Positions 1,489-50,435 of a DNA stretch of 64,000 bases are shown one piece after another; position 1 is the first letter of the stretch, and each line of letters opens with the position of its first letter. The stretch comes from Clostridia bacterium. Lineage in GTDB: Bacteria > Bacillota > Peptococcia > DRI-13 > SM3-B62. Made by a program: the position numbers and the translations under genes. Below the pieces are notes generated by a model. The model was not told the origin of the DNA. It made no database searches and saw nothing but the letters and a program-made list of their open reading frames with translations. The stretch is from positions 1 to 64,000 of the forward strand of contig JAHDSQ010000022.1 of the NCBI GenBank assembly GCA_018432615.1, in the 5' to 3' direction.

Positions 1489-3183
1489 GTGGTTCTTAGA
1501 GTAGGAGGGCTTGCTTCCGGTCTTGATACGGAGAATATCATCAAGGAGCTTATGCAGGCCGAAAGGACTAAACTGACGGGTGTCGAACAGAAAAAGCAGA
1601 TTCTGGAATGGACACAGGAAAGCTATTATGAAGTAAATAAGTTGATGGCAAATTTTGTGCTTGATAGCAAGGTGGATTTTGGTCTGGCCCAGACAACGGC
1701 AACGGGAAGTTTAATCAGTACAAGTCTCAATAGTTTGACCTGGGTGAAAAGCGCCGGTGTTGCGAACGAAGGGATTGCCACAGGTACGGCTTATGCCGAT
1801 GCCGTAAACGGCACGTATCGCCTTAATGTAACACAGTTAGCCGACAATTGGTCCTCTGCCAGCGAGAGTTCTATTTCCTCCGGCGAGAAGAGTAATCTGG
1901 TTTCTCAGTTTGGGATTGCCAACGAGGATACGGTAGATTTCACAATTACCACCAATTCCGGTTCGGTGACAATAAACAAGACAGATCTGGACAATGTGAC
2001 TTTAGGAAGTATTGTATCGGAGATAAATGCAGCCAATATCGGGGTCAGTGCCATGTATGACGCTGATTTAGACAGGTTTTTCCTGCAGACCACCGATACA
2101 GGCGAGAATAATACGATTAGTATTGAGGACAATAGCTCTTTAACGGGGGGAGCAAGCTTTATTACCGGAGCCGATAGTTTGCTGGGGTTGCAGTATTACG
2201 ATGATGACTTAGAGTCCTATCAAAAGGTTGAGAATGCTGAAACTTACAGCGGGGAAAACGCTATCTTCGATTTTGGTGCTGCGGCTAACATTTCGCAAAG
2301 CAGCAATACCTTTACGGCTAATAATATTAATTTGACCTTGAAAAGCACAGGAACCACCGAGGTTACCGTTGGTACCAATACCAACGAGGTTTACGAGAAA
2401 ATTTCAGGCTTTGTAGATAGCTATAACGAGATGCTTGATGCAATCGGTAAGGTGTTAGGCGAAACAAAGTATAGTGATTATTTGCCTTTGACCGAAGAGC
2501 AAAGGGAGACGCTAAGTGAAAAACAGATCGAACAGTGGGAAGAAAAAGCAAAAAGCGGGCTTCTCAGGAACGACAATCTTTTACAAAATGCTTATCAAGA
2601 ATTTCGTACAGGAATGTACCAGGAGGTTAAAGGGGTCGAGGGCAGCTTTGGGTATCTTGTCAGTGTCGGGATTACGACGGAAAGCTATTACAGCGGCTCC
2701 ATGGGAGGCAAGCTGGTAATAGATGAAAGCAAGCTTTTGGCGGCGATTGAAGAGGATCCTGACGGGATTCTGGATCTTTTATTCAAGGCGCCTGACAGCT
2801 CACTGTCATATAAATCGGAAACACAGATGACCGGGCAAGAGATAGAAGAGAAAAGAAGTGAAAGCGGTCTTGTCAGGAGGCTCTACGACAACATTGTCGC
2901 CAGTATGAAGCAGATTATCAGCAAGGCGGGTTGCGGCGATGATGCAGCCCTTTACAGGAGTGTAAGCTCTACAATTCTGGTGGACTTCATAGCGGATAAC
3001 AGCGGAATAAGCCAGTTGGACCGGGATATCGATTATAAGGATGATAAGTTGGACAGACTGAGTGATTACCTTGAAAATGTTGAGGAAAGGTATTGGGCGC
3101 AATATACCGCCTTAGAGCAAGCCATAAGCAATATGAATTCGCAAAGTGCATGGATAAGTCAGATGTTTGGGCAGGAGTCTTGA
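1489..3183 (+). CDS. fliD: Flagellar filament capping protein FliD (HAP2)
   Basis: 564 residues. FliD forms the pentameric cap at the filament tip and helps flagellin subunits fold as they emerge. The N-terminus VLRVGGLASGLDTENIIKEL is the family hallmark (GGLASGLDT). The FliD N domain covers roughly residues 5-100 and the C-terminal coiled-coil domain roughly 290-560, ending in YTALEQAISNMNSQSAWISQM, which resembles other FliD tails. Start is GTG 1489 with an AAGGGGG site at 1473-1479. It lies between flaG and fliS, the common Firmicutes order. Confidence 0.95.
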   Translation: MVLRVGGLASGLDTENIIKELMQAERTKLTGVEQKKQILEWTQESYYEVNKLMANFVLDSKVDFGLAQTTATGSLISTSLNSLTWVKSAGVANEGIATGTAYADAVNGTYRLNVTQLADNWSSASESSISSGEKSNLVSQFGIANEDTVDFTITTNSGSVTINKTDLDNVTLGSIVSEINAANIGVSAMYDADLDRFFLQTTDTGENNTISIEDNSSLTGGASFITGADSLLGLQYYDDDLESYQKVENAETYSGENAIFDFGAAANISQSSNTFTANNINLTLKSTGTTEVTVGTNTNEVYEKISGFVDSYNEMLDAIGKVLGETKYSDYLPLTEEQRETLSEKQIEQWEEKAKSGLLRNDNLLQNAYQEFRTGMYQEVKGVEGSFGYLVSVGITTESYYSGSMGGKLVIDESKLLAAIEEDPDGILDLLFKAPDSSLSYKSETQMTGQEIEEKRSESGLVRRLYDNIVASMKQIISKAGCGDDAALYRSVSSTILVDFIADNSGISQLDRDIDYKDDKLDRLSDYLENVEERYWAQYTALEQAISNMNSQSAWISQMFGQES

Positions 3184-3250
3184 GAACTGCTTAACTGTCC
3201 GTTACGTGAGGACAAGGCCTGATAGTTGAAAAGAGAAAGGACTGGTGAAA

Positions 3251-3637
3251 ATGGCACTACCAAATCCATATCAGATGTACCGACAGCAGCAAGTCTATAC
3301 GACACCTCAGGAAAAGCTCTTTCTGATGTTGTATGACGGGGCTATCAAGTTTTGCCGTCAGGCTAAATTGGCCATCCAAAAAAAAGATATCGAAGAAGCA
3401 GGAAAATGTTTGGTCAAATCACAACGTATCATCGAGGAACTGATGAACTCATTAAACATGGATTATGATATTGCGGAAAACTTGTATTCCCTGTATGATT
3501 ATATGTATAGGCGGCTGGTTCAGGCTAATGTGAAGAAGGATCCGGATATTATCGACGAGGTTGCCGGTTTCCTCACTGAATTGAGGGAAACCTGGGCTGA
3601 AGCGGCGCAAAAAGCGAAAAAAGAAAGTATGGTGTAG
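3251..3637 (+). CDS. fliS: Flagellin export chaperone FliS
   Basis: About 128 residues starting MALPNPYQMYRQQQ, the typical FliS start. FliS binds the flagellin C-terminal helix in the cytoplasm, prevents premature polymerisation and delivers it to the FlhA export gate. The family pattern PQEKLFLMLYDGAIKFCRQA is present at residues 18-37, and a four-helix bundle is predicted. ATG 3251 is preferred because AAAGGA at 3236-3241 lies 9 nt upstream; a GTG two codons earlier (3245) would be only 3 nt from that site. The stop is 3 nt before the next gene, indicating translational coupling. Confidence 0.95.
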   Translation: MALPNPYQMYRQQQVYTTPQEKLFLMLYDGAIKFCRQAKLAIQKKDIEEAGKCLVKSQRIIEELMNSLNMDYDIAENLYSLYDYMYRRLVQANVKKDPDIIDEVAGFLTELRETWAEAAQKAKKESMV

Positions 3638-3640
3638 GTT

Positions 3641-4144
3641 TTGAAAGAGAATGTTTTGAATTTTGTCCTGCAGCGTTTGGCGCAGGGATATGATGAACAG
3701 ACACCTGAATACAAGAAAATGTACAAGTTGGTTCTTGAGCAGGAAAAGGTTCTGCAGGAGAAGGAAGTGGACACAAGTACCCTGCTGGATTTGATTGCCA
3801 AAAGGCAAGGAATTATTGAAATCCTTGAAGAACAGAACGAAAAGCTCAGCGACTTAAAAGGGGAGGTCTGTACCTCCCTGGAGTTGAATGAGTTCAGCAT
3901 CAAGGAGATCAAGGCGCGTATGGGCGGTAATGGTGTTGAGGTCCTGTCCGCTTCGTTGGCGAGGCTTTCTGAGGTGATAGAAAAAATCAAGTATCTCGAC
4001 CGGGAAAACGAAAGAATCTTGCGTCAAAGAATTAAGGAAACGGCAGGGCATTTGGCGGGGATACATAAGCAAAAAAAAGCGCGCAAGGCCTATACGGAAG
4101 AACCACGTTGCGAAGATGGGGTTTTTATAGATTATTCCAAATAG
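3641..4144 (+). CDS. FlgN-like flagellar coiled-coil protein
   Basis: 167 residues, almost entirely charged amphipathic helix with heptad character (residues 25-75 and 105-150), a lysine-rich tail and no membrane segment. Length, composition and position directly after fliS suggest a FlgN/FliT-type export chaperone for hook-associated proteins; I see no decisive motif, so the family call is tentative. The TTG at 3641 follows the fliS stop by 3 nt with only a weak ribosome site, so translation probably depends on coupling to fliS. A strong terminator follows, closing the flagellar operon. Confidence 0.75.
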   Translation: MKENVLNFVLQRLAQGYDEQTPEYKKMYKLVLEQEKVLQEKEVDTSTLLDLIAKRQGIIEILEEQNEKLSDLKGEVCTSLELNEFSIKEIKARMGGNGVEVLSASLARLSEVIEKIKYLDRENERILRQRIKETAGHLAGIHKQKKARKAYTEEPRCEDGVFIDYSK

Positions 4145-4163
4145 AGAACAGAAGGCTTAATTG

Positions 4164-4190
4164 ACACCTTAGGGTGTTTTTTTGTTTTTA
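4164..4190 (+). terminator. Intrinsic terminator, end of flagellar operon
   Basis: Stem ACACC (4164-4168) / GGTGT (4173-4177), 4-nt loop, then a long U-tract (TTTTTTTGTTTTT). It sits 20 bp after the last flagellar gene. Confidence 0.85.
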
Positions 4191-4341
4191 CACAAGACAT
4201 TAGTCCTATATTGTTAAACAAATGCATAAAAAGACCTCGATATTTGTCTGATAACGGTGTTCTTCGACAAAATTACCCAATTTGAGAGCTGTCAAGTAAG
4301 AAATTGCCATAATGCGAGAAAAATTTAGAGGGAGTTTTTAT

Positions 4342-4402
4342 TTATCCACATTAACAAAAGTTTAAGTTGAGGTTATCAACAGATTTATGCACATTATCCA
4401 CA
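4342..4402 (+). promoter_or_regulatory. Cluster of four DnaA-box-like 9-mers
   Basis: Within 61 bp and all in the same orientation: TTATCCACA at 4342-4350, TTATCAACA at 4373-4381, TTATGCACA at 4385-4393 and TTATCCACA at 4394-4402. Two are exact matches to the strongest DnaA box, one fits TTATNCACA, one differs by a single base. The last two abut directly. They lie in the AT-rich 430-bp gap between the flagellar operon and the cold-shock gene, about 95 bp upstream of that gene's promoter. Neither dnaA nor dnaN is in the window. The sites could be a DnaA titration or regulatory locus; see findings. Confidence 0.7.
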
Positions 4403-4494
4403 AAAGTTGCGATTGTGAAAAAACTTTTTTCTGTTAAAGGGGAGTAAAATATCAGAGAATGATGTGCGCGCAGCGTGGACAGGACCCTTATTGA

Positions 4495-4523
4495 TTGACT
4501 AATGGTGATGGGGGTGCTATAAT
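4495..4523 (+). promoter_or_regulatory. SigA-type promoter of the cold-shock gene
   Basis: TTGACT (4495-4500), 17-bp spacer, perfect TATAAT (4518-4523). Expected start near 4530 gives a leader of about 45 nt ending in AGGAGG at 4561-4566. Confidence 0.85.
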
Positions 4524-4576
4524 CAACGGAGTGGGTGTAATAGCTCGCTTATATGTGTTTAGGAGGAATGAGTTTC

Positions 4577-4774
4577 ATGCAAGGCAAAGTAAAATGGTTT
4601 AACAAAGACAAAGGTTACGGATTTATTGAGAGAGAGGATGGTACCGACGTTTTTGTACACTTCTCTGCAATTCAGCAGGAAGGCTTCAAGACATTACAGG
4701 AAGGAGAAAGTGTGGAATTTGACATAGTCGATGGTCCTAAAGGCCTACAAGCGGCTAATGTTATGAGGGTCTAG
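4577..4774 (+). CDS. cspB: Cold-shock protein (CspA/CspB family)
   Basis: 65 residues forming a single OB-fold cold-shock domain that binds single-stranded RNA and DNA and melts RNA structure. Both nucleic-acid motifs are present: RNP1 KGYGFIE at residues 13-19 and RNP2 VFVHF at 26-30, preceded by the invariant GKVKWFN. ATG 4577 is chosen over ATG 4568 because AGGAGG (4561-4566) is 10 nt upstream of the first and only 1 nt from the second. It is monocistronic, with its own consensus promoter and terminator, and the DnaA-box cluster lies upstream. Confidence 0.97.
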
Positions 4775-4824
4775 TTCTTGATTCCTCTAATTTCAGATAC
4801 TTAGATAGACATAGGTAATTTATA

Positions 4825-4850
4825 CCCCGGCCTAAGGGCTGGGGTTTTCT
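4825..4850 (+). terminator. Intrinsic terminator after cold-shock gene
   Basis: Eight-pair stem CCCCGGCC (4825-4832) / GGCTGGGG (4837-4844) with one G-U pair and a TAAG loop, followed by TTTTCTT. Confidence 0.85.
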
Positions 4851-4939
4851 TAATCCCCTTTATCGTGCTAAAAAAATGCAGGATTTTTCCCCGCGTGGGG
4901 GAATACTTATATATAAGAACTGGGAAGGGAGTGAATGGC

Positions 4940-5467
4940 ATGAAATTCCAGATTAGGGGTAAAAACATTCAAGTAAGCGGTGCGCTCAAGGCATATGTAG
5001 AAAAACGTCTAGGCAAGCTTGACAAGTATTTTGAGAATGACCCCGAGGCTATTGTGACTCTCGTAGTTGAAAGGGACCGACACCGCGTCGAGGTAACGAT
5101 GCCCCTAAACGGGTACATCTTGCGTGGCGAAGAGGAATTGCCGGATATGTACGCTTGCATTGATGTGGTTGTAGAAAAATTAGAAAAACAGATTGAAAAG
5201 TACAAAACACGCTTTGTTAAGAAAAACAGAACAAAGAGTATCAAGGATATTGTGCCTGACTCCACAATTACTAATGGGGATGAGGAGCCGGAGGTTAAGC
5301 GTACGAAGCGCTTTGCCATCAAGCCTATGTCGGTGGAAGAGGCGATACTGCAGATGAACCTGCTGGGGCATAGCTTCTTTGTCTTTTTCAATGCGGAAAC
5401 AGAGGAGGCAAATGTTCTTTACCGACGCAAGGACGGGAATTACGGCCTAATCGAACCTGAGTTTTAA
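4940..5467 (+). CDS. hpf: Ribosome hibernation promoting factor, long form
   Basis: 175 residues. Long-form HPF binds the decoding region of idle 70S ribosomes through its N-terminal RaiA/S30AE domain (residues 1-100, MKFQIRGKNIQVSGALKAYV) and pairs two ribosomes into 100S dimers through its C-terminal domain (residues 115-175, RFAIKPMSVEEAILQMNLLGH onward), both visible here. Start ATG 4940 follows AAGGGAG at 4925-4931; an upstream in-frame extension to 4865 runs through the leader and lacks a ribosome site. hpf next to secA and prfB is the standard Firmicutes arrangement. Confidence 0.96.
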   Translation: MKFQIRGKNIQVSGALKAYVEKRLGKLDKYFENDPEAIVTLVVERDRHRVEVTMPLNGYILRGEEELPDMYACIDVVVEKLEKQIEKYKTRFVKKNRTKSIKDIVPDSTITNGDEEPEVKRTKRFAIKPMSVEEAILQMNLLGHSFFVFFNAETEEANVLYRRKDGNYGLIEPEF

Positions 5468-5486
5468 AATAACCGGCTTAAAGCAA

Positions 5487-5548
5487 GGGGAGCAAAAGCT
5501 CCCCTGTAATATTATGAAATATTATAGCCCTTCGGGTTATGGTTTTTT
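5487..5548 (+). terminator. Tandem hairpins after hpf
   Basis: Perfect 7-bp stem GGGGAGC (5487-5493) / GCTCCCC (5498-5504) with AAAA loop but no strong T-run, then a second hairpin ATAGCCC (5524-5530) / GGGTTAT (5534-5540) followed by GGTTTTTT. Together they probably separate hpf from secA. The rest of the 231-bp gap to secA shows an imperfect GTTTTTTGG/CCAAAAAAAC repeat at 5542-5568 and nothing else I can name. Confidence 0.6.
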
Positions 5549-5698
5549 GGATCGGTTGCCAAAAAAACGACCGGATGCTAAAATATATTGGGAAAACTAA
5601 GAAAATCCGGGAATATTTAATCTTAGGGAGTCTTGCGGCGGTTAGCTAGCGGATAAAAAGTTTGATAAATGATAAAAAGGCAGGTGCCTGAAGTGGTA

Positions 5699-8365
5699 AT
5701 GGGATTGCTTAAAAGGCTTTTGGATGATAATGCTAAGGAAATCAAGAGGTTAAGCAAGAAGATTGAGGAAATCAATTCCCTGGAAGAAAGCTTTAAGGGA
5801 TTGAGTGATAGTGAGTTAAGGGCAAAAACGCCGGAATACAGAGAACGTCTGCAAAAGGGGGAGACTCTTAATGAGCTTCTTCCCGAAGCCTTCGCTGTGG
5901 TGCGGGAGGCATCCCGCCGTGTTCTGGGGATGCGGCATTTTGATGTGCAGTTGATTGGCGGCATGGTCCTGCATGAGGGGAATATCGCCGAGATGAAAAC
6001 AGGGGAAGGAAAAACCCTGGTCGCCACACTGCCGGCCTATTTGAACGCCCTGACGGGAAAAGGTGTTCATATCGTTACGGTAAACGATTATCTGGCCCGC
6101 CGCGACAGCGAATGGATGGGTCAGGTCTATAAGTTCTTAGGCCTATCCGTGGGGTTGATTGTCCACGGTTTGGATTTTGAGCAGCGTAAAGCAGCCTATA
6201 ACGCCGATATAACCTATGGAACCAACAATGAATTCGGTTTTGACTATTTGCGGGATAATATGGTCTTTCGCCCGGAGCAGATGGTACAGAGGCAGCTTAG
6301 CTATGCCATCATTGACGAAGTGGACAGCATCTTGATTGACGAAGCCCGGACACCTTTGATCATTTCCGGAGCCGGGGCCAAGCCGAAGACTCTTTATCAA
6401 CAAGTTGCCAAAGTCATACCTCGGTTGAAGAAGGAGGAAGACTTTACTGTCGACGAAAAGGCCAAGACGGTTGTCTTGACGGAGCAAGGGGTAGATAAGG
6501 TCGAGAAGATGCTGGGGGTGGAGAACCTTTACGACGATATCAACATCGAAATCAGCCACCACGTCAATCAGGCCCTTCATGCCCATGCTCTGATGAAACG
6601 GGATGTTAATTATGTGGTTAAGGATGGGCAAATCATTATCGTTGACGAATTTACGGGACGGCTGATGTTCGGTCGCCGTTACAGCGAGGGTTTGCACCAG
6701 GCCATTGAAGCGAAAGAGGGCGTCAAGATCGAGAAGGAATCCCAAACCTTGGCCACGGTAACTTTCCAGAATTATTTCAGGATGTATGAGAAGCTGGCGG
6801 GTATGACGGGAACGGCCGTAACCGAGGAAGAGGAATTTCGTAAGATATATCAGCTTGATGTCATAGTTATCCCTACCAATATGCCGATGATCCGGCAGGA
6901 TCTGCCGGATGTGGTTTATCGTACGGAGGAGGGCAAGTTTAAGGCCGCGGTGGAAGAAATAGCGCGGCATTATGAGCTTGGACAGCCTGTCTTGGTGGGG
7001 ACGATTTCCATTGAGAAATCGGAAGTTTTGAGTCAGATGTTGAAAAACCGGGGGATACCTCATCAGGTGCTCAATGCCAAGTTCCACGAGATGGAAGCCC
7101 AGATCGTCGCCCAAGCCGGACGGAAGGGAGCGGTAACGGTTTCTACCAATATGGCCGGTCGCGGTACCGACATAATTCTCGGAGGTAATCCGGGCTTCAT
7201 GGCGCGGCTGGAGATGCTCGAGCAAGGTGTGGAATCCTGGCTGATTGAGGAGGCGGCAAGCCATAGTGTGACGGATGAACCCGAAATTCTCAAAGCCAGA
7301 GAACTGTACAATAATCTTTATCAGGAGAAGAAGCGAGAGACCGACCGGGAGCATGACGAGGTGGTCAAGGCGGGAGGACTCCATATCGTCGGTACGGAGC
7401 GGCACGAAAGCCGTAGGATCGATAATCAGTTGCGGGGACGTTCCGGACGACAGGGTGACCCGGGTTCCAGCCAGTTTTTCATTTCCATGGAGGATGACCT
7501 CATGCGGTTGTTTGGGGCCGAAAATATTATGGGGTTGATGGATAAACTGGGGATGGATGATGATATACCTATTGAAAACAGCCTGATAAGCAGGGCGATA
7601 GAAAATGCTCAGCGGAGGGTCGAAGGCAGGAACTTTGAGATACGTAAAAACGTCTTAGAATATGATAACGTTATGAACCAGCAGCGGGAGGTCATTTATG
7701 AACAGCGCCGCAAGGTGCTGGAGGGTGAGAATGTTCAGGATAGCATCCTTGATATGATAGAGAAGGTTGTAGCCCGCACCATTGATCGTTTTGCCGGGGA
7801 AAGCAGGTATCCGGAAGAATGGGATATTAACGGACTTTTGGAACTGGCCAGGCTACGTTTTTTGCCTCAGATGAAGGTGACGACGGAAGAATTGGTGAAG
7901 ATGGAAGCCGAAGAACTAAGAGAGCATCTGTTTGATTTGGCTATGCAGGGGTATCAAAAGCGTGAGGAAGATATCGGTTCCGAAGGTATGCGTGAGCTGG
8001 AGCGGATGGTGACCTTGCGGGTTGTGGATGAGAAGTGGATGAACCATCTTGATGCCATGGATCAGTTGCGCCAGGGCATAGGACTGCGGGCATACGGGCA
8101 GAAAGACCCCTTGGTGGAATACAAGTATGAAGCCTATGATATGTTTAACCAGATGATTGAAGAGATCCAGGAAGAGATTGTAAGGTATGTCTATTATGTC
8201 TCTGTTGTGGAAAGACCTCAAGAAAGAAAAGACTTGATAGAGAACCGCAGTGATGAAGAGGTGGCCGCAAAAACCCCGGTTAGGTCGGATAAGGTTGGAC
8301 GAAATGATCCTTGTCCTTGCGGCAGCGGGAAAAAGTATAAAAAGTGCTGTGGCAAGAACGAGTAG
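5699..8365 (+). CDS. secA: Protein translocase ATPase SecA
   Basis: 888 residues. SecA is the cytoplasmic motor that pushes unfolded preproteins through SecYEG. Visible elements: N-terminus [18 protein letters not shown]; Walker A in [17 protein letters not shown] near residue 100; DEAD-type Walker B in [21 protein letters not shown] near 205; second nucleotide-binding half with [17 protein letters not shown] near 480; and the C-terminal zinc/SecB-type motif [16 protein letters not shown] at the end. ATG 5699 fits family starts; GTG 5693 is an in-frame alternative and the ribosome site (AGGTG at 5682-5686) is weak. prfB follows by 15 bp, the usual secA-prfB order. Two long antisense open frames within it are shadows. 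Confidence 0.98.
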
Positions 8366-8380
8366 GAGGCAAACGAGTAT

Positions 8381-9470
8381 ATGGAAATCAGTCAGGAGTT
8401 AAAAAGAGCTAAAAAAAGAATCGCTGAAATAAGGGGGTCTCTTTGACCTTGCCGGCAAGGAAAGGCTCTTGCAAGAGTTGGAAGAAAAAATGAGCCAGCC
8501 CGATTTTTGGGATGATAAAAACAAAGCCCAGGAGGTCGTTCAACAGGGCACAGCTTTGAAAAACCGTCTGGAGGAATTCAACGGCTTGCTGCAGGATTGT
8601 GAAGATGCGGAAATAATGTACGAATTGGCCCAGGAAGAAGAAGAGTATTTAAAAGAGGTAGAAACGAGCCTGCTACAACTTCACCAGGGGTTGGATGATT
8701 TGGAGTTGAGCCTTTTGTTTAAGGATGAATACGATGCAGGAGCTGCCATTATAGCGCTTCATCCGGGTGCGGGGGGAACGGAATCTCAAGATTGGACAGA
8801 GATGCTCTTGCGGATGTATAACCGCTGGGCTGAAAGACAGGGTTTCACGGTGGAGATGCTGGATTATCAAGCGGGAGATGAAGCCGGGGTTAAAAGCGTT
8901 ACCTTGCTCATCAAGGGTGAGAATGCTTATGGCTATTTGAAGGCGGAAAAAGGCGTTCATCGTCTCGTGCGCATTTCTCCCTTTGATGCTTCCGGTCGGC
9001 GGCACACCTCTTTTGCCGCGGTGGACGTGCTGCCTGATCTTGAGGAAGGTGCAAATGCAGAGATCGTTCTGGACCCCACAGAGATAAAGACGGATACCTA
9101 TCGTTCCGGGGGTGCAGGGGGTCAGCATGTTAATAAGACGGACTCTGCCGTGCGTTTGACTCATTTGCCCACCGGCATTGTTGTTCAGTGCCAAAATGAG
9201 CGTTCGCAGATCTCCAATAGGATGGCAGCTGAAAAAATCCTCAAGGCTCGGCTTTTAGAATTAAAACGGGCTGAACAGGAAAAGGAGCTGGCCGGCCTGA
9301 GGGGCGACCAGCAGGAGATAGGCTGGGGCAGCCAAATACGGTCTTATGTTTTTCATCCCTACAGTCTCGTCAAGGACCACCGGACGAATGTCGAAGCAGG
9401 CAATGTCCAGGCGGTTATGGACGGTGAGATAGATGCCTTTATTAACGCATATTTGCGGAGGCAAAACTAA
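8381..9470 (+). CDS. prfB: Peptide chain release factor 2 with programmed +1 frameshift
   Basis: RF2 releases nascent peptides at UGA and UAA. The gene starts at ATG 8381 (AGGAGG at 8364-8369) and reads 21 codons to an in-frame TGA at 8444-8446. The site is AGG GGG TCT CTT TGA C: an internal Shine-Dalgarno (AGGGGG, 8432-8437) then the CTT slippery codon before UGA. Reading shifts +1 and continues GAC CTT GCC from 8445 to TAA at 9468-9470, giving about 362 residues. The downstream frame carries the SPF anticodon-like tripeptide (RISPFDASG) and the GGQ peptidyl-hydrolysis motif ([14 protein letters not shown]). RF2 autoregulates through this frameshift. The slippery heptamer has TCT before CTT where TAT is commonest. 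Confidence 0.97.
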
Positions 9471-43434: not shown

Positions 43435-44065
43435 GGGGGTGTACTGGTTTCGACGGGGGAAAAGGTGGCAAGGGTAGCGAGCCGAGGTCGCATTTCTCGT
43501 AAAACAATGCACAATAAATTAAACGCTAACGATAATTTAGCTTTAGCTGCGTAAAGCAGTTAACCTCTTACTCTCTGCTCCCGCGGTGAGGGCTAAGAGG
43601 TCATTTTAGCGGGATACCTCTGAGTTAGAGTCGCATAGCTTAAGAGGGAAACTTATGGGACTGGTCTGAAGGAATCCGTGCCTATCTGGAGTCCTGATGG
43701 CGAGATTTAAATTATAGGCTGCGCTCGGAGAAGCTCTTGTGGTCGTTCTTTCGGACAGGGGTTCGATTCAAAAGAGTTGCCCTATAGAGTGATTTATAGG
43801 TGATAATCTGGCTTAATCGGTGAAACCTACAGCAATCAGGAATGGTTGCCATGGCAATACCGAGGGGTATGAGGCGAAAGCCATCAGCCCTGTATCGACT
43901 CACAGGCTTCTAAGGCCGAAGAGCTATGGAGTGCTGGGATGAAGGCAGAAAACAATAAGAAGCCTTCATAATACGCCAGACGACTGCCGGAAACAAGGTG
44001 ACAGTCGAAGATATAGTCAGTGCCCTGTGAAAGCAGGGGAAAGACACGTCCCCTCACCTCCACCA
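43435..44065 (+). ncRNA. ssrA: tmRNA gene (ssrA) interrupted by a group I intron
   Basis: 5' acceptor strand GGGGGTG (43435-43441) pairs with CACCTCC (44055-44061) before encoded ACCA. GGTTTCGACGGGG follows the 5' strand as in all tmRNAs. The tag frame GCT AAC GAT AAT TTA GCT TTA GCT GCG TAA (43525-43554) gives ANDNLALAA, a typical clostridial degradation tag; resume codon GCT is inferred. The 3' half has the T-arm start GGACAGGGGTTCGAT (43753-43767), then 281 nt of foreign sequence, then TCCCCTCACCTCCACCA (44049-44065). Removing 43768-44048 restores a perfect T stem-loop and a 350-nt RNA, the normal size. tmRNA with SmpB rescues stalled ribosomes. Confidence 0.95.
43768..44048 (+). ncRNA. 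Group I self-splicing intron in tmRNA T-loop
   Basis: 281 nt without an open reading frame. Group I features visible: last exon base U (43767) and last intron base G (44048); a P1 candidate in which exon CGAU pairs with GUUG (43776-43779) with a U-G pair at the splice site; a P-like element TAATCGGTGAAACC (43814-43827); Q-like AATACCGAG (43856-43864); and S-like AAGATATAGTC (44008-44018), with GACT (43982-43985) available for P7. Group I introns at this T-loop position are known from some Firmicutes tmRNA genes. No endonuclease is encoded inside, but a LAGLIDADG gene lies 67 bp downstream of the intron end. Confidence 0.88.
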
Positions 44066-44076
44066 AAATTTGACAT

Positions 44077-44112
44077 AAAAAGACCTTATCGTTCAAAAAG
44101 ATAAGGTCTTTT
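44077..44112 (+). terminator. Strong terminator after ssrA
   Basis: A perfect 13-14-bp stem (44077-44090 with 44100-44112) of AAAAGACCTTATC / GATAAGGTCTTTT with a 9-nt loop. A- and T-tracts make it usable from both directions, also serving the minus-strand gene that ends at 44115. Confidence 0.9.
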
Positions 44113-44114
44113 AC

Positions 44115-44544
44115 TTAGTGCGCCCGGCATGGGCGCAGTCTAACGGACATAAATTTTTGATAGAAATCCTCTTTTTGACGAAGTAACTCAGGGGAATATC
44201 TGCCGTTTCGGGGAGTCACAGAAAGATAATTATTGATAATATAATAAGCTCTTTTTCTTTTTCGCTCAATAACAAGATAAGGTGCAATCTCTTGCAGAAT
44301 TTTAAGGGCATTGTTGTAGGTAATATTTAGCGCGAAGGAGTTTTTGTGCAAATTAGGTTTATAATTTTTTTTAGAAACAATAGCCCCACAGCCTGTTGCT
44401 TTTTTTCCATTCCAACAGTTCTTTGTCAGTAGAAGCTATACTTATCATTGGGGAGGGATGCTTATTCCTACTGTGTTTTATCAAGGAAATACTTCCTTTG
44501 CCATCAATTATTCCGGCAAGGTAAGCTCGTTGTTCAGAGGTCAA
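44115..44544 (-). pseudogene. LAGLIDADG homing endonuclease, single frameshift
   Basis: On the minus strand, TTG at 44544-44542 after an AAGGTG site opens a frame reading LTSEQRAYLAGIIDGKGSIS, a LAGLIDADG motif (AGIIDGKG), followed by PMISIASTDKELLEWKK. At a run of seven A (plus-strand T 44400-44406) the frame breaks; with one A fewer it continues KATGCGAIVSKKNYKPNLHKNSFALNITYNNALKILQEI and ends LLRQKEDFYQKFMSV... at the stop 44115-44117. This gives about 142 residues, normal for a single-motif LAGLIDADG enzyme. It is therefore a recently broken gene, a polymerase-slippage gene, or a sequencing error. Only the second part (78 residues) is open. Confidence 0.82.
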
Positions 44545-44569
44545 AATAACACCTTCAATAAACAGAACG

Positions 44570-44963
44570 TATGTTTGTTATCATGTATTAAAATGATTGT
44601 AAAGAAGGGAGCCGTTTGATTATTTGCTGTATGATACCCACAAGACAATGAGTTTTCCCGAAAAGTGGGGCGGTGCTTTAATCCAACCCTTTCCATTAAT
44701 TCTTTGGCAGATAATGTATCATTATCCAATTCATGCAGGAGCTTTTTGACTTGTACGGTAACTTCATCGGAAACTTGTACGGTTTTGGCGACCTGTTGTA
44801 ACGTAGCATATATCGTGTGCAACAAAAATTCAACAAATGGTCCCGAATCGGCTGCCTGATCGGATGAACCTGTGAGCCTTTTGTCCAACTCGCTAATTTC
44901 AGCAATGAGGTTAATAATATTGTCTGTAATCGTGTATGAGGGAACATACCCTTCATACTTCAT
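44570..44963 (-). pseudogene. Fic-family protein, internally deleted and 3'-truncated
   Basis: Minus strand, start ATG 44963 (AAGGAG 8 nt before). The first 35 residues (YTITDNIINLIAEISELDKRL) resemble the N-terminal helix of Fic-domain proteins. The sequence then jumps to GPFVEFLLHTIYATLQQ and VSDEVTVQVKKLLHELDNDTLSAKELMERVGLKHRPTFREN, the C-terminal winged-helix region common in Fic/ATP-binding-like proteins. The catalytic core with HPFxxGNGR is missing (about 200 residues), and after FREN the frame runs into unrelated sequence adjoining the LAGLIDADG gene. The open frame continues to 44541 but is probably not functional. Confidence 0.7.
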
Positions 44964-44975
44964 ATGCATGACTCC

Positions 44976-45029: not shown

Positions 45030-45049
45030 GTTATATGGAGGTGGCTTTG

Positions 45050-45268
45050 ATGAGTACCATTTCGATAAGGCTGAATGATAAAGAAGATATGTTGATCAGA
45101 AAGTATGCTGAACTTAACAATATGGATTTATCCACCTTCATTCGACAGGCAGTTATAGAAAAAATTGAAGATGAGTATGATTTGACTCTATTTAATAAGG
45201 TCTGGGAAGAGGAAAAGAACCAAGAGCGAATCAGTCATGATGAGTTGAAAAGAGAACTGAAGCTATGA
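45050..45268 (+). CDS. Ribbon-helix-helix antitoxin (RelB-like)
   Basis: 72 residues. N-terminal ribbon-helix-helix: STISIRLNDKEDMLIRKYAELNNMDLSTFIRQAVIEKI, then an acidic toxin-binding tail (YDLTLFNKVWEEEKNQ...). Start ATG 45050 has GGAGGTGG at 45037-45044. The stop overlaps the toxin start (ATGA), so the pair is co-translated. It probably binds the GTAATACA repeats upstream. Similar to the DUF6290/RelB group. Confidence 0.87.
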   Translation: MSTISIRLNDKEDMLIRKYAELNNMDLSTFIRQAVIEKIEDEYDLTLFNKVWEEEKNQERISHDELKRELKL

Positions 45269-45531
45269 AGTATCGAGTTGAGTATGCAAAGACGGCTGTA
45301 AAGCAGTTAAAAAAAATGGATAAAAAGATAGCTACTTTTATTTTATCCTTTATTGAAGAAAAGCTGGTCAATTGTCTAAATCCAAGATTATATGGAAAAG
45401 CGCTTCAAGGCGACTTAAACGATAAATGGAGATATAGAGTGGGTGAATATAGGATTCTTGCAAAAATTGAGGATCCTATAGTGGTGATAACTGCCGTTGA
45501 GGTTGGGCATCGAAAAGATATTTATGCATGA
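45265..45531 (+). CDS. RelE/ParE-family toxin
   Basis: 88 residues: YRVEYAKTAVKQLKKMDKKIATFILSFIEEKL, then NPRLYGKALQGDLNDKWRYRVGEYRILAKIEDPIVVITAVEVGHRKDIYA. The WRYRVGEYRIL strand and the GHRKDIY C-terminus are characteristic of RelE mRNA-interferases of the type partnered with RHH antitoxins. It overlaps the antitoxin stop by 4 bp. Confidence 0.9.
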   Translation: MKYRVEYAKTAVKQLKKMDKKIATFILSFIEEKLVNCLNPRLYGKALQGDLNDKWRYRVGEYRILAKIEDPIVVITAVEVGHRKDIYA

Positions 45532-45641: not shown

Positions 45642-48600
45642 ATGAAATCCATCGCTTTTATTGATACGGAAATCGAGATAAACAGTGGGAGGATTCTCGA
45701 TATCGGTGGTGTTAAGGGGGATGACAGTATATTTCACTCCAATTCTGTTGCTGACTTTGTCAGGTTTCTAAAAGGATCGGAGTATATTTGTGGACACAAC
45801 ATTTTCAAGCATGATTTAAAATATCTTAAAAATGCCATTGATTCTGCAAGTATTAATAATTCAAATTTTATTGATACCTTATTTCTTTCTCCTCTCCTTT
45901 TTCCCGCTAAACCTTATCATGCTCTGCTCAAAGATGATAAGCTACAAACGGAAGATACCAACAATCCTCTGAATGATTCAATAAAAGCCAAAGATCTTTT
46001 CTTTGATGAGGTTACGGCTTTCCAACAGACAGATAATATATTAAAACGAATTTTTTATGCACTGTTAAAAGATAAAAGGGAGTTTTGCTCCTTCTTTTAT
46101 TTCCTTGGATATGAAGAAGAGGATATAAATATTGAAGCTGTTATACGTGAAAGGTTTTATTCCCAGATATGCGAAGGGGCAAATCTCTCAAAAATTATCT
46201 TAGAATATCCTGTGGAGTTAGCCTACTGCTTAGCTTTGATAAATACTAGAAGCCGGTATTCAATCACTCCCCCGTGGGTTATTAAGAACTTTCCGGCGGT
46301 AGAACGGATCATGTTCTTATTAAGAAGCAATCCATGCCTGAAGGGTTGTAAATACTGCAACGAGGCCCTTGACATTCATAAAGGATTGAAGCGTTTTTTC
46401 GGATATGATTCTTATAGGACATTTGCCGGGGAGCCCTTACAGGAGAGAGCTGTTAATGCCGCTGTAGCCAATAAATCGCTTTTAGTGGTATTTCCTACCG
46501 GTGGCGGAAAATCAATTACTTTTCAAGTACCCGCTTTAATGAGTGGGATCAACTCAAAGGGACTGACGGTTGTTATTTCTCCGTTGCAATCATTAATGAA
46601 AGACCAGGTTGATAATTTGGAAAAAATGGGCATAACAGATGCAGTTACTATTAATGGTTTGCTTGACCCGATTGAAAGAGCAAAATCATTTGAAAGGGTT
46701 GAAAACGGTTCGGCTTCCATCCTTTATATCTCACCGGAGTCTTTACGTTCAAAAACAATCGAACGCTTACTTTTAGGAAGAAATATTGTCCGGTTTGTTA
46801 TTGACGAGGCACATTGCTTTTCATCCTGGGGACAGGATTTTAGGGTTGACTATTTATATATTGGTGATTTCATCAAATCAATTCAGGAAAAGAAAAATAT
46901 TGAGGATGGAATTCCTGTTTCTTGTTTTACTGCTACCGCCAAGCAAAAAGTCATTGAGGATATTCGGGACTATTTTAAGAATAAACTAGCCCTTGGCTTG
47001 GAGTTGTACAGTGCTGGTGCATCCAGAAGCAACCTTCACTATCAAGTGTTCGCAAAAGAGAGTGAAGAAGAAAAATACAATACAGTCAGGGACTTACTTG
47101 AAGAGAAGAACTGTCCAACAATCATTTATGTTTCACGAACAAGAAAAGCATATATCTTAGCACAAAGACTATTACAGGACGGTTATTCCGCAAAGCCCTA
47201 TCATGGCAAGATGGACAAGCAAGAAAAAACAGAAAATCAGGATGCATTTATGAGGGGTGAGGTTCAGATCATGGTTGCCACATCCGCTTTCGGAATGGGA
47301 GTAGATAAGAAAGACGTTGGCATGGTAATTCACTATGAAATCTCCGACTCCCTTGAAAACTACATCCAGGAAGCAGGAAGAGCAGGACGGGATGAAACTA
47401 TCTCCGCAGATTGTTTTGTGCTGTTTAATGATGAAGATCTAAGTAAACATTTTATCCTTCTTAATCAAACCAAACTAAGCATCCGGGAGATTCAGCAGAT
47501 ATGGAAGGCTATTAAGGAAATTACGGGATTACGCTTAAAAGTATCCCAGTCCGCTTTAGAGATTGCACGAAAGGCTGGTTGGGATGATAGTATTGCCGAT
47601 ATTGAAACGAGGGTGAAAACGGCTGTCGCAGCTTTGGAAGAATCAGGTTATCTCAAGCGCGGTCATAACGCACCAAGATTATTTGCAAACAGTATTCTTA
47701 CTAAAAACGCTGAGGAAGCAATCAGTAAAATTAATGCCTCAAATAAATTTGATGAGAAGCAGAAAATCAAGGCAATACGAATTATTAAAAAGCTTTTTTC
47801 CAGTAAAAGCAGAAAGCATTTAAATGATGAAGAGGCGGAAGAAAGAGTTGATTACATCTCGGATCACTTGGGGATTGTCAAAGAGGAAGTAATAAGAATC
47901 GTAACCCTTCTCCGTGAGGAAAAAATTTTAGGTGATACGAAAGATTTAACGGCATTTATAAAGAAAAAGGAAAACAAAAACCGATCGCTGAGTATTCTAA
48001 AATCGTTCGTACAGATTGAAAAGTTTTTACTCACTGTTTTATTGAATGAGGAGCAAATACTTCATATTAAAGAACTTAATGAGCAGGCCGAAGAAAACGG
48101 CTGTAATGAGGTAACACCAAACAAGCTGAAAACAATCCTGAATTTTTGGGCGATTAAGAACTGGATAAAACGGCAAAGCACGGACTATTCAAAAAATCAT
48201 CTTGCCGTTCTTTGCCTTCAAGAAAAGGAGATGCTTGAGGCAAGGCTTACACAACGTTATCAAATAGCACAGTTTATTTTAGAGTATCTTTATCGTAAAA
48301 GCTGTACAGCCAGTGATGAAATTTCTAAAGATGAGGCTTTGGTTGAGTTTTCAGTTTTGGAATTGAAGGAGGAATTTGAAGGCGGGGGATTTTTTAATAA
48401 AGCTACTCCTGAGGATATTGAGGATGCTCTGTTTTACTTGTCAAGGATTGAAGCCTTAAAAATAGAGGGCGGTTTTATGGTTGTCTATAATGCTCTTACT
48501 ATTGAACGTATTGAGCAGGACAACAAAAAACGGTACAAAAATGAGGATTATCAGAAACTTGATCAGTTTTACCAAAACAAGGTTCAGCAGATTCATATTG

Positions 48601-50435
48601 TCGGCGAGTACGCTAGGAAAATGATTAACGATTACAAAGCTGCACTTCAATTTGTAGATGACTATTTCCAATTGAATTATACCTCGTTTTTGCATAAGTA
48701 TTTTAGGGGTAGCAGGCAAAACGAAATAAGAAGAAATATTACACCAACCAAGTTTAAACAACTCTTTGGCGAATTATCACCAACACAACTTAAAATTATT
48801 AACGACAATGAATCAAAATATATTGTTGTGGCCGCTGGGCCCGGCAGCGGCAAGACCCGAATTTTAGTACACAAGCTAGCTTCCTTGCTTTTAATGGAAG
48901 ATGTCAAGCATGAACAGTTGCTAATGGTGACTTTCTCAAGGTCGGCAGCTACCGAATTCAAGAAACGATTACTTAAACTGATCGGTAACGCTGCTAATTT
49001 CATAGAGATAAAAACGTTTCATTCCTATTGCTTCGATTTATTGGGGAGAGTTGGTACCCTCGAAAAGTCAGGTGAAATAATTCAAGAAACTATTAAGAGA
49101 ATTAAGAGTGGAGAAGTTGAACCGGGTAGAATTACGAAAACAGTTTTGGTAATCGATGAAGCTCAGGATATGGATGCTGATGAGTTTGCGTTAATCAATA
49201 CTTTAATGGAATACAACGAGGAAATGCGTGTCATTGCAGTTGGTGATGATGACCAGAATATTTTTGAATTTAGAGGCTCCAGTTCAAAATATCTGGAGAA
49301 ACTGATCGTTGAGCAAAGTGCTGTTATGTATGAATTGGTTGAAAACTACAGGAGCAAAAGAAATCTGGTTGATTTTGTCAACCAGTTCGTAAAAAGGATT
49401 CCACATCGTTTGAAGGATACCCCCATTATTGCGGTACAGGGTGACAAGGGAAAAATAAAACTGGTTCGATATAAAAGTAACAATCTCATCACGCCTATAG
49501 TAAATGATATACTCTCAACAGGACTTGCAGGGACTACCTGCGTTTTAACAAAGACAAATGAAGAAGCTTTACAGATAACCGGATTGCTCCTGAAGAATGG
49601 AATGCAGGCAAAACTTATCCAGTCAAATGAAGGATTTAGTTTGTATAACCTTCTCGAAGTTAGGTTCTTCCTGAGCCGTCTCAATTTGGCTGAGGATACT
49701 TATATGATTAGTGACGATGTTTGGGTAAATGCTAAACGAAAGTTGATACAAAGGTTTGGTAACAGTTTAAATTTAGAGGTTTGCATCAATATCATTAAAG
49801 ATTTCGAGGCCGTGAATCCAAAAAATAAATACAAATCAGATCTGGATATCTTTATTCGCGAATCAAAACTGGAAGACTTCTACGGGGAAAATATTGAAAC
49901 AATATTTGTCTCAACTATTCATAAGGCGAAAGGCCGAGAGTTTGATAATGTCTTTTTGATGCTGGATCAATTTAATCCCGGAACAGATGAAGCTAAAAGA
50001 CAACTATATGTTGCTATGACAAGGGCGAAAGGCAACCTGACCATTCACTATAATGGAAATTACCTCGACTTCATAAAAGCAGAGGATTTTAGAATAGTTG
50101 ATGATTTCGAAGTTTACTTACCACCAAGCCAAATAGCGATGCAATTGACTTTTAAAGATGTATGGCTGGATTTCTTTCTATCCCGGCAAAAGCTAATTTC
50201 GTCACTTAATAGCGGGGACGTTCTTATTATTGATGGAGATTGTTGCCGCAATTCAAAGGGGTTACCGGTATTAAAATTCTCAAAGCAACTAATGAATCAA
50301 ATTGCGGAGATGAAACTAAAAAATTATCTACCTAAAACAGCAAAAATCAGGTTTATAGTATACTGGCAGAAGGAAAACTCAGAACAAGAAGACAGAATTA
50401 TTTTACCTGAACTTATTTTTGAGAGATCAAAATGA
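45642..50435 (+). CDS. Three-part exonuclease-RecQ-UvrD fusion helicase
   Basis: 1597 residues, the largest gene here. Residues 1-125: DEDD-type 3'-5' exonuclease fold with FIDTEIE (Asp8, Glu10), CGHNIFKHD (about 50-58) and YHALLKDD. Residues 230-240: cysteine cluster CLKGCKYC. Residues 250-700: RecQ-like SF2 helicase with TGGGKS (Lys290), DEAH (388-391), then [34 protein letters not shown] and winged-helix segments. Residues 1045-1480: UvrD-like SF1 helicase with AAGPGSGKT (1064-1072), [36 protein letters not shown] and [11 protein letters not shown]. All Walker residues are intact. GGAGGAGG precedes ATG 45642. Followed by an HNH nuclease, so DNA processing or phage defence is inferred. Confidence 0.92.
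   Translation: [1597 protein letters not shown]

Follow-up and report, generated by a model that had tools for sequence, protein, structure and literature searches.

Why does a gene for the bacterial quality-control RNA tmRNA (transfer-messenger RNA), interrupted by a self-splicing group I intron with no reading frame of its own, lie beside a broken endonuclease gene? This question is raised by the window analysed in the present study, namely 64,000 nucleotides (positions 1 to 64,000) of contig JAHDSQ010000022.1 from the Clostridia bacterium assembly GCA_018432615.1, in which a free-standing LAGLIDADG homing endonuclease gene (HEG) at 44115-44544 converges on an intron-bearing ssrA. Comparison across genomes suggests that this HEG is very probably a defunct copy of an I-CreI-like LAGLIDADG endonuclease gene of the free-standing kind, whose product would have been the collaborative-homing partner of the HEG-less tmRNA intron. 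The original prediction had offered two readings of the gene, a now decaying, free-standing partner by which the intron was mobilised, or a gene expressed by slippage on an A-run.

First, the HEG is broken. Two open reading frames (ORFs) of the minus strand, 44371-44544 (57 aa) and 44115-44351 (78 aa), lie in different frames, the 5' part matching Pfam LAGLIDADG_3 (E 1e-4) and both parts matching the same phage endonuclease family, phrog_5046. The homology is continuous on both sides of the frame break at an A7 run, and reading across the run yields 142 residues, approximately 50% identical over their whole length to intact genes of 139 aa in other genomes. With one LAGLIDADG motif, a length within about 130-170 aa and its Pfam matches, the protein is of the single-motif, I-CreI type. 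The predicted split at the A7 run was therefore borne out, but its attribution to one base was upheld only in part, since the protein is one residue short there, and a short deletion explains the break no less well than a slip of one base. Likewise, the predicted length of 142 residues stood, but the enzyme is not the normal one that had been supposed: the window copy has Lys where the acidic catalytic residue stands at the end of the motif, whereas the Glu of IAGIIDGEG is kept by all 19 intact relatives aligned with the window protein and in 37/37 full-length relatives scanned (a few of these rows are the same locus twice). This position aligns with the catalytic Asp of I-CreI and I-MsoI. The C-terminal tail is also extended or altered compared with the relatives. 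As its sequence reads, 44115-44544 is a pseudogene with two lesions, a frame break and the loss of the catalytic acid, and a dead member of the LAGLIDADG family.

Could the gene nevertheless be alive? If ribosomes or the polymerase slipped on the A7 run, which sits at the break between two homologous parts, a full-length active enzyme might result. We attach next to no credence to this second reading of the original prediction, because with the catalytic acid replaced by Lys a slippage read-through would still yield a dead nuclease; moreover, the protein lacks a residue at the run, the frameshift is not conserved (the intact G025 gene has the A7 in frame, and G038 has no A7 there), and the frame breaks of other decayed HEG copies fall at other places. 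Alternatively, a homopolymer error at the break, in what is a single assembly, might conceal a gene that is intact in the cell. This is highly improbable, as the Glu-to-Lys replacement and the altered tail are unlike homopolymer errors and the adjoining fic gene is likewise a remnant.

Second, the relatives of this HEG share its location. When 84,980 species, each represented by one genome, were searched with a profile, 23 HEG loci were found, and a sample of 398 Bacillota genomes revealed the HEG in 9 genomes; the surroundings were checked by Rfam scans, and ARAGORN, which is blind to intron-form tmRNA, was used solely for recognising intronless forms. Nearly all bacterial homologues (the 23 loci, the 398 Bacillota, and Anaerolineae) lie at tmRNA, and nearly all of these just downstream and convergent. 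Among 46 genomes of the class to which the window belongs, 4 have the HEG, all with the intron and all convergent to tmRNA. In the window, as predicted, the HEG lies outside the intron in the opposite orientation, and its end is separated by 66 bp from the intron and by 49 bp from the CCA of the tmRNA; the 281-nt intron contains no endonuclease ORF, so that the layout is that of collaborative homing. The exceptions to linkage are L082 (not assessable), L084 (at the edge of its contig; the genome has an intron-form tmRNA at another place), and two weak relatives within 23S rRNA genes (L126/L127). The tmRNA is farther off on the same contig in L074 (30 kb), G391 (3 kb), G233 (1.5 kb), and G685 and G686 (20 and 51 kb); in G428, G685 and G686, 20-51 kb of one contig separate the HEG from the intron-bearing tmRNA, as though large islands had been introduced at this place. 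No HEG homologue was found in the plasmids searched. The occurrence of intact relatives at the same site, almost always beside the same intron, suggests that the enzyme spreads the intron from outside.

Third, the HEG and the intron occur together. The intron was found with the sequence model R1 in 18/398 Bacillota genomes, and a full-length HEG (counting the frameshifted copy of the window) was present in 4/18 of these compared with 0/380 of the others (Fisher p 3e-6, kinship ignored). In the Metabacillus crassostreae family (Bacillaceae), an intact or decayed HEG was observed in 11/14 intron genomes (in two of the 14 the intron is reduced to its 3' part), compared with 0/66 intronless genomes (p 3.5e-11, again ignoring kinship). 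No full-length HEG was found beside an intronless tmRNA among the bacterial genomes searched. Intron and HEG distances are correlated (Mantel r 0.81, n=12), a result that vertical descent would also give. A second LAGLIDADG lineage, with two motifs and approximately 365 aa, was found in only 2/398 genomes (G154 and G249), both intron-bearing; in each, the gene closely follows the tmRNA and is co-directional with it, and an N-terminal zinc-finger-like region was observed in these genes (L112 and L110).

Fourth, the loci form a series of stages in the order expected of a homing cycle, a concept reportedly due to Goddard and Burt, and every stage is present. The empty stage, an intronless tmRNA without the HEG, is that of most genomes, including a member of the window's genus (G001) whose tmRNA exon is 99% identical to that of the window. 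The intron accompanies an intact HEG in, for example, G025, G038, G261, G374 and many Bacillaceae, and a decayed HEG in the window, G010, L066, L068, L071 and G233. In G412 the intron stands without the HEG; this intron and the terminator hardly differ from their counterparts in the HEG-bearing G374, and the two genomes differ cleanly in length, by the HEG segment, between the terminator and the next gene. Finally, an intronless tmRNA with only an HEG fragment was observed in L056/G213, L057/G163, L060/G284, L085 and L086/G391. Decayed copies thus stand beside introns or intronless tmRNA, in agreement with the decay supposed in the original prediction, and the comparison also speaks well for its intron-mobilising partner, given homologues at ssrA and full-length bacterial copies only with the intron. 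Other arrangements were also seen: in L128 (G213, 2073-8730), a full intronless tmRNA with an HEG fragment is followed 6 kb downstream by a degenerate intron-bearing tmRNA copy, and in G225 (L131) two 3' ends of intron-bearing tmRNA lie 1.4 kb from each other.

Herein, we propose that the intact enzyme, probably a homodimer, would cut intronless ssrA at the T-arm, and that the intron would split the cleavage site in the donor, which would be protected. Repair of the break would copy into the recipient both the intron and the 3' flank in which the HEG lies, and splicing would keep the tmRNA functional there. After fixation, selection on the enzyme would lapse and the HEG would decay, in the window through the frameshift and the loss of the catalytic acid; the intron might later be lost as well, leaving an intronless tmRNA and an HEG fragment.

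Several observations weigh against this proposal. The window sequence comes from a single genome assembly, the co-occurrence counts take no account of shared ancestry, and the cleavage target is inferred from gene position. As a 22-bp pseudo-palindrome the T-arm is unremarkable, and no argument is therefore drawn from palindromy. Of the 18 intron-bearing Bacillota genomes in the sample, 12 show no trace of the HEG, which indicates that the HEG is not the sole route of intron spread. In phages, an intact HEG lies just after an intronless tmRNA on contigs L142 and L144, so that the restriction of the HEG to intron-bearing genes does not extend to them, and on contig L143 the HEG follows a tRNA-Ser.

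These observations also bear on two other explanations. A maturase that aids the splicing of the tmRNA intron, and so persists only with it, would give the same co-occurrence, and Thermotoga provides a known case of a LAGLIDADG maturase, whose substrate is a 23S intron (PMC3984707). This explanation is quite improbable, considering the 12 intron-bearing genomes of the Bacillota sample without any HEG trace, the near-identical intron of G412 without an HEG, the invariant catalytic acid of the intact copies, and the phage copies beside intronless tmRNA or tRNA. The same phage copies, and a HEG family common to different intron subtypes and subsites, are what would be expected if the HEG homed to ssrA independently and without introns, the intron being a bystander that merely blocks re-cutting. 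We consider this unlikely, since the full-length bacterial copies were found only with the intron; the correlated distances also argue against it, though they are inseparable from vertical descent.

The proposed partnership may belong to a broader history. Two subsites of the T-loop, 7 and 2, are associated with the same HEG family. At subsite 2 (GCGGGT / TCGATTCCCGC; arrangement read out in full for L118), the introns of Anaerolineae enclose seven relatives in antisense orientation, and these in-intron HEGs form one clade (100/100). In the same class, one other genome (G610, locus L125) has a position-7 intron with the HEG outside, 86 nt after the CCA and in the same direction. The HEG tree was rooted on two 23S HEGs, and this root does not separate capture from escape. 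Among phages, contigs L137/L138 have an intron with the HEG antisense inside it. Homologues near other targets, which the original prediction had named as evidence against itself, occurred in phage relatives only, one by the tRNA-Ser mentioned above and more distant ones with no tRNA or tmRNA nearby; the latter indicate that the tmRNA link is particular to this branch and does not hold for LAGLIDADG proteins overall. An approximately unbiased test of one tmRNA clade versus the viral relatives gave p 0.16, by which such a clade is neither rejected nor shown. On viral contig L139 (2850-3600), the tmRNA gene is permuted (alpha-type), and an HEG of this family separates its two parts, directly behind the CCA. 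We give about an even chance to the hypothesis that one T-arm-cutting LAGLIDADG lineage is a common driver of the repeated invasion of the tmRNA T-loop by group I introns at different subsites: free-standing by the position-7 introns of Bacillota, captured antisense in the position-2 introns of Anaerolineae and in one phage tmRNA intron, and in other phages next to a tRNA or an intronless tmRNA. If so, this lineage would leave living intermediates of an intron acquiring (or shedding) its endonuclease.

The features of the locus are collected in the table. The ssrA gene matches Rfam RF00023 (157 bits, 43443-43770), and its ends were read from acceptor-stem complementarity and the CCA. The intron matches RF00028 with core helices (39.9 bits, E 1.5e-8; below the Rfam gathering score of 50), was aligned with 18 other tmRNA introns, and was delimited by the -1U / omega-G rules of PMC11915505; as read from the sequence, it has the group I core, -1 U and terminal G of a position-7 intron, and the T-loop is restored after splicing. 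Hairpins similar to that between the two convergent genes were found between tmRNA and HEG in relatives. Beyond the HEG lies a second decayed gene, a Fic-family remnant in which N- and C-terminal pieces are fused without the Fic core, and which ends within the ribosome-binding site of the HEG. A toxin-antitoxin pair and a large helicase-like ORF follow downstream of the decayed genes.

Table. Coordinates of features at the ssrA locus of the window
Feature	Position	Strand	Details
ssrA (tmRNA) precursor gene	43435-44065	+	exon 1 43435-43767; exon 2 44049-44065, ending in CCA
ORF-less group I intron, 281 nt	43768-44048	+	T-loop position 7 (GGGGTTCGAT / TCCCCT); RF00028, intron alignment, boundary rules
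Hairpin, probable bidirectional terminator	44078-44112	.	AAAAGACCTTATC / GATAAGGTCTTTT; between convergent genes
Degenerate free-standing single-motif LAGLIDADG HEG	44115-44544	-	TTG start 44544, stop 44117-44115
Frame-change site, A7 run	44400-44406	-	protein 1 residue shorter than relatives there
AAA (Lys) replacing invariant catalytic Glu	44497-44499	-	LAGIIDGKG vs IAGIIDGEG in relatives
GAAGG, plausible ribosome-binding site	44552-44556	-	7 nt ahead of TTG start
Fic-family gene remnant	44541-44969	-	
DUF6290 / ParE-like toxin-antitoxin pair	45035-45531	+	
1597-aa ORF	45642-50435	+	resembles RecQ-like helicase fused to UvrD-like helicase

The proposed pair offers a testable bacterial collaborative-homing system, with intact, decaying, lost and captured states, in culturable Bacillaceae, and it is relevant to the way in which mobile introns come by an endonuclease. 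Already known are tmRNA introns and in-intron LAGLIDADG genes (PMC11915505), and collaborative homing, mainly from phages. No earlier report of a free-standing HEG partner at tmRNA was found in the searchable literature, outside which subscription papers mostly lie.

Among known enzymes, I-CreI and I-MsoI, single-motif homodimers that are intron-encoded in 23S rRNA genes, are similar in fold, motif position and profile. The AlphaFold2 model of the intact G025 relative, which stands in for the window protein (pLDDT, the predicted local distance difference test, 93.7), has the alpha-beta-beta-alpha-beta-beta-alpha fold, with I-CreI as its best PDB match (template modelling score 0.77), and the HEG profile matches I-MsoI (E 7e-13). 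However, the identity is approximately 20%, and the catalytic acid is Glu in the relatives described here (Lys in the window) compared with Asp in those enzymes. T4 SegB, a GIY-YIG enzyme, and the free-standing phage HEGs of tRNA regions likewise adjoin tRNA-like genes, as do the phage relatives L142-L144, but SegB is not known to have an intron partner. Among tmRNA T-loop group I introns, 4% have LAGLIDADG HEGs within the intron (P7.1 or after P9), and no HEG outside is described (PMC11915505); the position 7 and the presence of a LAGLIDADG gene at the tmRNA locus are shared, whereas the window HEG is free-standing past the terminator and the Anaerolineae relatives lie inside, antisense, at subsite 2. 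A further close parallel is collaborative homing, as reported for F-CphI and the psbA intron of cyanophage S-PM2 and for a T3/T7-like phage case (PMC6083498, PMC3984707, PMC10448857). By analogy, the intron would be expected to shield the donor and the endonuclease to mobilise the intron, and the pattern observed herein fits collaborative homing as shown for F-CphI / psbA (PMC6083498). In contrast to F-CphI, which has an Endo VII motif and for which cleavage does not have to be inferred as it does here, the tmRNA pair combines a LAGLIDADG enzyme, bacterial chromosomes and a non-coding RNA target gene in a convergent arrangement that is conserved across Bacillota.
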